Origin: Bacillota bacterium
GTDB taxonomy: Bacteria; Bacillota; Sulfobacillia; JAJYWN01; JAJZPE01
DNA length: 35,190 bases
Assembly: GCA_036504675.1 (NCBI GenBank)
Contig: DASXUT010000143.1
Location: 1 to 35,190 of the forward strand
Direction of reading: 5' to 3'
Positions 4,171-6,242 of the stretch are shown here, in pieces (the first letter of the stretch is position 1; each line of letters opens with the position of its first letter). The position numbers were made by a program, and so were the translations under genes. Under the pieces are notes generated by a model, which saw only the letters and a list, made by a program, of their open reading frames with translations, was not told where the DNA came from and made no database searches.

Positions 4171-4407
4171 ATGCCGACCGACAAGAAGGTCACCGTCTAC
4201 ACCACCCCGACGTGAGGGTCGTGCGTCAAGGCGAAAGAGTTTCTTTCGCACAAGGGAATCGCCTACGTTGAGAAGGACGTGGCCAGTGACATGGCCGCGG
4301 CCAAGGAACTGATGTCCAAGGGCTTCCGTTACGTTCCCGTCATCTACGTCGATGACGAGGTCGTCGCCGGCTTTGACCGGGCTAAGCTGGACAAGCTGCT
4401 GGGCTGA
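4171..4407 (+). CDS. Selenocysteine-containing glutaredoxin/NrdH-like protein (in-frame TGA at codon 15)
   Basis: Starting at ATG 4171, the frame meets TGA at 4213-4215 and then stays open to a second TGA at 4405-4407. Read through with selenocysteine (U), it is a 78-residue thioredoxin-fold protein: strand 'KVTVYTTPT', active site U15-G16-S17-C18, the cis-proline segment 'YVPVIYVDDEVVAGFD' (Pro56), and the C-terminal helix 'RAKLDKLLG'. That is the complete small glutaredoxin/NrdH layout and normal length, with U exactly where the first catalytic Cys of CxxC belongs. Such proteins reduce disulfides or serve peroxidases and reductases in the cytoplasm. A SECIS-like hairpin lies 3' of the UGA, and a strong terminator follows the stop codon. 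The start is preceded by GAGAGGGCGAGGGC. Conventional ORF calling would miss it. The alternative, a nonsense mutation of a Cys codon, is much less likely given the hairpin. Confidence 0.88.
4231..4249 (+). promoter_or_regulatory. Bacterial SECIS-like hairpin
   Basis: GCGAAAG (4231-4237) and CTTTCGC (4243-4249) form a perfect seven-pair stem around the five-base loop AGTTT. The loop lies 22 bases after the UGA codon and has G as its second base. Bacterial SECIS elements are stem-loops inside the coding region, with the apical loop roughly 16-37 bases after the UGA and a G among the first two loop bases, bound by SelB. All these conditions are met. A competing GTGCG/CGCAC pairing exists around it. 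Confidence 0.75.
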
Positions 4408-4433: not shown

Positions 4434-4464
4434 CCGATAGCAGGCCGTCAAGGCCTGCTATCGG
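4434..4464 (+). terminator. Hairpin terminator after the selenoprotein gene
   Basis: A perfect 13-pair stem (CCGATAGCAGGCC and its complement) closes on the loop GTCAA, 27 bases after the stop codon. The following bases, CATCTATTCC, are only modestly T-rich, so it is either a weak intrinsic terminator or a 3' stability hairpin. Confidence 0.7.
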
Positions 4465-4568: not shown

Positions 4569-5294
4569 ATGAAAGAGCCTATCTATCAATGGCTGACCAT
4601 CGGCCTCTTGGCCGTCCTGCTGATCCTGGTCGGCCTCGGCGGGAGAATCGCGCCGGCCACACCCAAGCCTGAACATCCGTTGTCCGTGGCCGGGCAGGCC
4701 ATCCTCGACGCCGTCCCCGACCAGGCCGAGATCCAACTCGGGCTCAACCTGAGGGCGGCCACGGCCCAGGAGGCGCAGAAACAAGGGGCGGACAAGATGG
4801 ACGCGGTGGTCAAGGCCCTCAAGACCGCCGGGATCAAGACCGAGGACATCCAGACCAAGTACGTCTCGTTGAACCCGGCCTACGATTACACCCAGAACGG
4901 TCAGAAGTTCCTCGGCTATGATCTGAACAACGTCGTCAGCTTCAAGACCGGAGACTTCGCCGGCATGGGCGGGATCATCGACAAGGCCGTCGCCGCCGGG
5001 GCCAATCGCGTCGACAGCCTTCAGTTCAAGGTCAAAGACAAGAGCAAGTTCAACGCTCAGGCCATCGACCAGGCTATCGCCGACGCCAGGGCCAAGGCCG
5101 AGGCGGCCGCGAAGACCCTGGGAACGAAGATCGTCGGGGTCAAGTCGGTCAGCATCCAGGATCAGAACTACGTCCCCGGTCCGGTCTACCGCGACATGGC
5201 CATGAAGCAGGCCGGCGCCGCCGCCAGCACGCCGATTGAGCCGGGACAGGTGCAACTCCAGGTGACGGTGGCGGTCGAATTTATCGTCAAGTGA
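4569..5294 (+). CDS. SIMPL-domain (DUF541) envelope protein
   Basis: A 241-residue protein with one N-terminal hydrophobic segment (about residues 8-25), acting as an uncleaved anchor or signal, followed by a SIMPL/DUF541 domain. Typical features are the opening 'LSVAGQAILDAVPDQAEIQLGL', the 'ALKTAGIKTEDIQTKYVSLNPAYDY' block and the 'AIADARAKAEAAAKTLGTKIVGVKSVSI' helix-strand near the end. Family members are periplasmic or surface proteins linked to oxidative-stress protection and protein interaction, with no proven enzymatic activity. The ATG at 4569 has a clear GGAGGT nine bases upstream. It stands alone between the terminator at 4434-4464 and the riboswitch promoter at 5324. Proximity to a thiol-redox selenoprotein could hint at a shared stress role, but that is only inference. 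Confidence 0.85.
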   Translation: MKEPIYQWLTIGLLAVLLILVGLGGRIAPATPKPEHPLSVAGQAILDAVPDQAEIQLGLNLRAATAQEAQKQGADKMDAVVKALKTAGIKTEDIQTKYVSLNPAYDYTQNGQKFLGYDLNNVVSFKTGDFAGMGGIIDKAVAAGANRVDSLQFKVKDKSKFNAQAIDQAIADARAKAEAAAKTLGTKIVGVKSVSIQDQNYVPGPVYRDMAMKQAGAAASTPIEPGQVQLQVTVAVEFIVK

Positions 5295-5370: not shown

Positions 5371-5562
5371 CGGGACCTTCGGGGCAAGGTGAGAGCGCCC
5401 CGGCCGCGCGCGGCAATCGCCGCGACGGTCAAAGCGCTCAATTCCTGATCGGCGGTAAGGCCTGAAGAAGGCCGAGCCCGCGAGCCGCCCACTGGGGCGG
5501 CAGATCCGGTGAAAAGCCGGGGCCGACGGTAAAGTCCGGATGGAAGAGGGTCAGCGGTCCTT
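5371..5562 (+). ncRNA. FMN riboswitch (RFN element)
   Basis: The hallmark RFN blocks appear in order: CTTCGGGGCAAGGTGAG (about 5378-5394), GATCGGCGGTAAGGCC (about 5448-5463), GCCCGCGAGCC (about 5475-5485), CAGATCCGGTGAAAAGCC (about 5502-5519) and GGGGCCGACGGTAAAGTCC (about 5519-5537), followed by GGATGGAAGAGG. The closing P1 helix can form between GGACC near 5373-5377 and GGTCC at 5556-5560. FMN binding turns off riboflavin synthesis or uptake genes in Bacillota. The gene directly downstream is a RibU-like transporter, and a strong intrinsic terminator between them indicates control by transcription attenuation. The P2/P3 region, about 5395-5445, is longer than the minimum, as is common. Confidence 0.95.
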
Positions 5563-5573
5563 GACTGGCGAGT

Positions 5574-5593
5574 CGCGGGATGATCATCCCGCG
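5574..5593 (+). promoter_or_regulatory. Perfect 20-base palindrome in the riboswitch expression platform
   Basis: Ten bases (CGCGGGATGA) are followed immediately by their exact complement, between the RFN core and the terminator. As RNA it can make only a tight hairpin with a tetraloop-sized turn. It may be part of the antiterminator/terminator switch or a pause hairpin. Confidence 0.5.
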
Positions 5594-5617
5594 GTCGCGC
5601 GCAAGCACGTTGACGGA

Positions 5618-5651
5618 AAAGCCCCGGGGGAATCTCCCCGGGGCTTTGTTC
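5618..5651 (+). terminator. Riboswitch-controlled intrinsic terminator
   Basis: AAAGCCCCGGGG (5618-5629) and CCCCGGGGCTTT (5636-5647) form a perfect 12-pair stem with a six-base loop, followed by GTTCGTTC. It lies between the FMN aptamer and the ribU-like start, the position expected of the off-state terminator. Confidence 0.9.
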
Positions 5652-5696
5652 GTTCAGGCGTCCGCGGGTCCCGTGAGAAAACGGAGGGTCAATGGA

Positions 5697-6242
5697 ATGG
5701 CTGGGACGACCAACAGGACTCGTTTCTTCGTCAGGATCGGCATTCTCATCGCGATGGGTCTCGTTCTGCGCTACCACCTACTGCAAGTGTCGATCTTCCC
5801 GCCGGCTGACTTCCTCAAGTACGACCCGGCCGACATCCCGGCCCTGCTGGCCGGCTTCGCCATGGGACCCCTGGCCGGCTTCATCGTCGAGATCGGCAAG
5901 AACCTCTTGGCCATGGCCGTGGGGATGGCCCCCGGCGGGATCGTCGGGGAAGCCGCCAATACCCTGGCCGGCGGGGTCTACGTGATCGTCGCTTCAATCA
6001 TCTACTGGCGGCGAAAGACCCGGGCGCAGGCGGTCGGCTCGATGGTCGTGGCGACGGCGGCCGCCGCGCTGATCATGGCCATCGCCAACTACTACATCTT
6101 CCTGCCCCTCTGGGGCATTCCCATGAGCCAACTCAAGCACTACGCGATCAGCTTCATCCTGCCCTTCAACCTTCTGAAGTTCGCCATCTCCTCGGTCCTG
6201 ACGTTCCTCCTCTACAAGCGGGTGAGACACTACTTGGGGTGA
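5697..6242 (+). CDS. ribU: ECF transporter substrate-binding protein, riboflavin-type (RibU-like)
   Basis: A 181-residue integral membrane protein with about six hydrophobic helices. The segment 'PADFLKYDPADIPALLAGFAMGPLAGFIVEIGKNLL' is very close to the conserved 'FLKLDFSDIPALI..F.LGPLAG..IE..KN' stretch of RibU/YpaA proteins, which capture riboflavin outside the cell and work with the shared ECF module (EcfA, EcfA', EcfT). The FMN riboswitch and attenuator directly upstream independently support riboflavin or FMN-precursor as the substrate. Two ATGs lie close together, at 5692 and 5697. Only 5697 is in the right frame, with ACGGAGGG about seven bases before it. A terminator follows. The window does carry an ECF ATPase and T component, but these sit in a nickel operon, so the general ECF module for this protein is probably encoded elsewhere. 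Confidence 0.92.
   Translation: MAGTTNRTRFFVRIGILIAMGLVLRYHLLQVSIFPPADFLKYDPADIPALLAGFAMGPLAGFIVEIGKNLLAMAVGMAPGGIVGEAANTLAGGVYVIVASIIYWRRKTRAQAVGSMVVATAAAALIMAIANYYIFLPLWGIPMSQLKHYAISFILPFNLLKFAISSVLTFLLYKRVRHYLG

Follow-up and report, generated by a model that had tools for sequence, protein, structure and literature searches.

Does the TGA at codon 15 of a small reading frame in this Bacillota bacterium end a protein, or is it read as selenocysteine (Sec)? The frame occupies positions 4171 to 4407 of the window, by which we mean the whole 35,190-nt stretch of DNA that was analyzed, and the ORFs that a six-frame list gives for this place overlap it and all lie in other frames. Our preferred reading, to which we assign a probability of about 96%, is that the locus codes for a small YruB- or clostridial Grx1-type glutaredoxin, in which Sec would stand in for the nucleophilic Cys of the CxxC motif and the UGA would be decoded with the help of SelB and a SECIS element. 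The features discussed below are as follows.

4171 to 4407, + strand: predicted Sec-containing glutaredoxin gene, 78 amino acids plus stop (PF00462, TIGR02196, same-family orthologues)
4213 to 4215, + strand: in-frame TGA, codon 15, predicted Sec (codon state of homologues, Sec machinery of the genome)
4222 to 4224, + strand: codon for the resolving Cys18 of the UxxC motif (Cys in 19/19 hairpin-bearing TGA relatives)
4231 to 4249, + strand: predicted SECIS stem-loop GCGAAAGA-GUU-UCUUUCGC, 8 perfect pairs, loop at 4239 to 4241 (folding, comparison)
4434 to 4464, + strand: perfect 13-bp inverted repeat CCGATAGCAGGCC-GTCAA-GGCCTGCTATCGG, 3′ of the glutaredoxin gene (read from the sequence)
4569 to 5294, + strand: SIMPL (DUF541) gene, downstream of the glutaredoxin gene (PF04402, 183.8 bits)

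Starting with an ATG at 4171, the frame extends to a final TGA stop at 4405 to 4407, with the internal TGA as its sole interruption. The initial annotation had proposed that TGA replaces the first Cys codon of a CxxC active site and that the gene is otherwise intact up to a second stop; both parts are borne out, the TGA lying exactly where homologues carry either TGC/TGT or TGA. With TGA translated as U, the protein reads MPTDKKVTVYTTPTUGSCVKAKEFLSHKGIAYVEKDVASDMAAAKELMSKGFRYVPVIYVDDEVVAGFDRAKLDKLLG, placing the active site TPT-U-GSC close to the N terminus, where U corresponds to the first Cys of the CxxC motif of relatives. This 78-residue protein matches the Pfam Glutaredoxin family PF00462 with 64.5 bits (gathering cut-off, 22.9). 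With Sec scored as Cys, it also gives a full-length match to TIGR02196 (GlrX_YruB) at 87.4 bits, under the curated cut-off of 88.55; the Uxx-star model NF041212 scores 51.6 bits, under its curated cut-off of 66. Among solved structures, the glutaredoxin entries 7c10 (E = 1.6e-21) and 7c12/7c13 (E = 4.5e-20) match best, the alignments to 7c10 and 7c12 spanning residues 5 to 78 without a gap.

The initial annotation had staked its reading on a genome that carries selA, selB, selC and selD, and all four are present. That is, selA (566 bits) adjoins selB (358 bits; cut-off, 242) on contig 65, and a tRNA-Sec with anticodon UCA lies on the same contig, ∼7 kb from the two genes. Contig 62 carries selD (383 bits), which is itself interrupted by an in-frame TGA, within the motif AGUGCK, followed by an 8-pair hairpin. 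The same genome further encodes, on contig 52, a Prx-like lipoprotein as a candidate selenoprotein, with a UxxC motif (NFWRPTUGAC) and a hairpin (L133, on the reverse strand, with its TGA at position 1609 of the reverse complement).

The hairpin behind the TGA has its stem arms (GCGAAAGA and TCTTTCGC) at 4231 to 4238 and 4242 to 4249, with the stem beginning 15 nt past the UGA. In the fully paired form, the GUU loop lies 23 nt from the TGA; opening of the last A-U pair turns the loop into AGUUU with G in second position, 22 nt from the TGA, and it is in this opened form that the stem-loop originally described, with G as the second loop base 22 bases downstream, is recovered. Published constraints on bacterial SECIS elements comprise a loop of 3 to 9 nt, a stem of 4 to 16 bp, a G within the first two loop bases, a distance of 16 to 37 nt from the UGA and an MFE of ≤ -7.5 (PMC13188914). 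The hairpin lies within these limits (8 bp, loop GUU, 22 to 23 nt), and the 47 nt after the TGA fold with -10.9 kcal/mol. Taken alone, a hairpin in one sequence is weak evidence. The 60-nt fold is no more stable than that of shuffled sequences (z = -0.52), and an equally long hairpin within the SECIS range follows 36 of the 1035 TGA triplets in the window (3.5%). Under synonymous codon choice, the exact placement of the hairpin has a p value of 0.0005; the codons AAA, TTT and CTT each make up 7 to 13% of the use of their own residue in the window. An Rfam scan reported no SECIS family at the locus, where three weak matches were judged to be chance, and a genome search for the SECIS core returned only the single copy at this locus. 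Since the folding energy of the single sequence is not significant, the SECIS call rests on comparison.

The comparative evidence argues strongly for a SECIS hairpin. The core GAAAGAGTTTCTTTC occurs in 21 of 154 genomes of the class, in one copy each, and every one of the 21 copies follows, at a distance of exactly 17 nt, a TGA that belongs to a glutaredoxin-like UxxC motif, as opposed to one match for a reversed control pattern. These loci span several protein groups with the codons fixed, and the linkage owes part of its strength to shared descent and to the common peptide KEFLS. Among 19 TGA homologues, 94.7% of cells in the stem are paired, a percentage inflated by the choice of these homologues for intact inner six pairs, with the outer two pairs free of this selection. 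At two stem pairs, both partners have changed (C-G/U-A/A-U and A-U/C-G/G-C). The covariation score of the 19 is higher than in any of 500 shuffles and in any slid register; one pair near the base of the stem is open in 8 of the 19. Close TGA homologues keep the hairpin and paired changes preserve its stem, which lends weight to the proposed likeness to bacterial SECIS elements on a point where that proposal had been exposed. In 27 of the 46 TGA homologues, distant paralogues mostly from the UPHC and HSPGU groups, the hairpin is missing from this register. Same-family genomes also hold a second TGA glutaredoxin paralogue (L073, L088 and the UPHC group), which likewise lacks a hairpin in this register.

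Selection on the frame is visible beyond the TGA. Orthologues in two same-family genomes (84% and 76% identity) have the TGA at the same codon and retain the hairpin, and pairwise comparisons among the three genes give dN/dS values of 0.13, 0.20 and 0.24 behind the TGA. Across 97 homologues, codon 15 is always Cys or TGA, as anticipated (TGA in 46, TGC/TGT in 51). The inner six stem pairs are complete in 19/46 TGA versus 3/51 Cys homologues (Fisher p = 5e-5, uncorrected for relatedness), and selA is present in 38/40 genomes with TGA versus 19/40 Cys-only genomes, meaning those with only Cys copies among the copies read (p = 3e-6, again uncorrected for relatedness). The two TGA genomes in which selA was not found are probably incomplete assemblies. 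Three Cys copies (L094, L098 and L102; TGC/TGT) with the hairpin at its exact place are nested among TGA relatives and probably represent Sec-to-Cys conversions with a relic SECIS, a phenomenon described in other families (PMC1794560). The homologue tree, which is poorly resolved at 71 columns, needs 13 state changes, of which well-supported branches force no fewer than 7. With one small gene, many TGA/TGC switches and some SECIS relics, the related set is a natural experiment in which Sec/Cys exchange can be followed cleanly.

Could the TGA be something other than a Sec codon? If it were a disabling mutation in a pseudogene, or a Cys codon misread in the assembly, the commonness of TGC/TGT at this position among homologues would be readily understood, but the TGA is kept in two further same-family assemblies and in dozens more genomes, dN/dS is well below 1 behind it, and all 21 copies of the SECIS core are linked to a TGA; we hold this explanation to be highly improbable. 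Genome-wide reassignment of TGA, for example to Trp or Gly and without Sec insertion, would also open the frame by turning the codon into a residue. Yet TGA also works as a stop in these genomes, because the terminal codon at the same place is TGA here, TAA in G038 and TGA in G039 while the internal TGA is retained; with a full Sec system in the genome, and with Cys rather than Trp or Gly as the residue replaced, the probability of reassignment is negligible. Stop-codon readthrough can in general be raised by a hairpin located 3′ of the stop, and the one seen here might act as such an enhancer of leaky or programmed readthrough that inserts a near-cognate residue. We give this scenario very little credence, as Sec, unlike readthrough, explains why a catalytic Cys is replaced, why TGA copies track selA and why the hairpin conforms to the bacterial SECIS model. 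Sec is very probably what the internal TGA specifies.

Sec insertion at this codon and its efficiency, as well as redox activity and partners of the protein, are inferred. In the mechanism that we propose, SelB with Sec-tRNA(UCA) would bind the hairpin and deliver Sec at codon 15, with the final UGA terminating translation normally. The Sec15 selenolate would then attack a disulfide or sulfenate of the substrate and Cys18 would resolve the selenenylsulfide, a division of labor that is established glutaredoxin chemistry. Re-reduction of the oxidized protein would more likely involve thioredoxin reductase/thioredoxin, or some other thiol, than glutathione. Genes for thioredoxin and thioredoxin reductase lie side by side, next to selC. 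In the genome assembly (G000; estimated 96% complete), we found no PF01625 match for MsrA, a profile matched in 12 of 14 control genomes, and no PF02955 match for GshB, which leaves room for GshF-type fusions or imported GSH. Since the thioredoxin pair sits beside selC, recycling by the thioredoxin system is the better guess, and a guess only.

The protein might contain Sec and still serve a specialized role, like the UXX-star selenoproteins of unknown function, instead of being a general disulfide reductase. Points in favor are its Uxx-star score, the missing MsrA and GshB matches and neighbors that, judged by profile matches in the window, offer no redox clue; given that the score falls below the Uxx-star cut-off while the YruB model scores 87.4 bits, and that the resolving Cys is present (UGSC), we consider a specialized role unlikely. 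For the glutaredoxin reading that we prefer, the question becomes which substrate a Sec glutaredoxin acts on, and which reductant recycles it, in a cell with no MsrA or recognizable GshB. The SIMPL gene next door, which is outside the Sec system, shows 71 to 74% identity to the copies beside the orthologues in both same-family genomes, and the same order of SIMPL gene and a further reading frame follows all three orthologues. The inverted repeat at 4434 to 4464 is possibly a terminator without a T run; it was not called in a terminator scan, which needs such a run. Further downstream, an FMN riboswitch (84 bits; 5371 to 5555, + strand) precedes a frame at 5580 to 6242 and is the sole Rfam match at gathering score within the window. 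In plasmid records, every match was below 60% identity.

A tentative idea, which we think somewhat less probable than its opposite, is that the near-invariant 15-nt SECIS core GAAAGAGUUUCUUUC, which encodes KEFLS, is a module retained by or handed on between several glutaredoxin-like selenoprotein groups and remote lineages, including a pseudouridine-synthase-like/glutaredoxin fusion whose glutaredoxin part has no NCBIfam match, and survives as a relic in Cys-converted copies. The fusion is a 281-aa protein (L120:839-1684, + strand) with a weak pseudouridine-synthase-like match in its N-terminal part and a C-terminal Sec glutaredoxin domain (PTUSVCNGTKEFLS) that has the same 15-nt core; no NCBIfam model matched this domain at 1e-5. 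Its motif is also present in L119 and L121 to L132, and proteins of this type may be an uncatalogued selenoprotein. A TGA copy with an identical 19-nt SECIS was also seen on a contig labelled as a Burkholderiales MAG (L053:2445-2663), reflecting either horizontal transfer or a misbinned contig.

How does the predicted protein compare with known systems? Like the Uxx-star proteins (NF041212 and others), it is glutaredoxin-like with Sec at the first redox position; unlike them, it retains the second Cys and stays under their cut-off. It resembles TIGR02196 GlrX_YruB over its full length yet falls 1.2 bits short of the curated cut-off. The closest characterized relative is cGrx1, a native selenoprotein glutaredoxin from Clostridium (Alkaliphilus) oremlandii. 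The structure entries 7c10 and 7c12/7c13 presumably are cGrx1, as a Cys-to-Ser exchange at the resolving position sets their two sequences apart, in agreement with PMC7642778. cGrx1 is a small single-domain Grx with a native Sec first in a UPxC motif and a resolving Cys (PMC7642778), and the protein studied here shares this layout, with U-G-S-C in place of U-P-x-C. The substrate of the C. oremlandii Sec glutaredoxin is a Sec-containing MsrA, and GSH recycles the glutaredoxin (PMC4479559, PMC7642778); MsrA, the known partner of cGrx1, was not found in the present genome, nor was GshB. Sec-containing glutaredoxins with UxxC (PF00462) are a listed prokaryotic selenoprotein family (PMC13188914, PMC9312934), ten sequences of which were already known from the Sargasso Sea set (PMC1088965), and the protein described here shows no essential difference from the reviewed family. 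The gene is well supported and not surprising; it adds a new lineage and an active-site variant to that family, as a selenoprotein discoverable by plain reading of the raw sequence.
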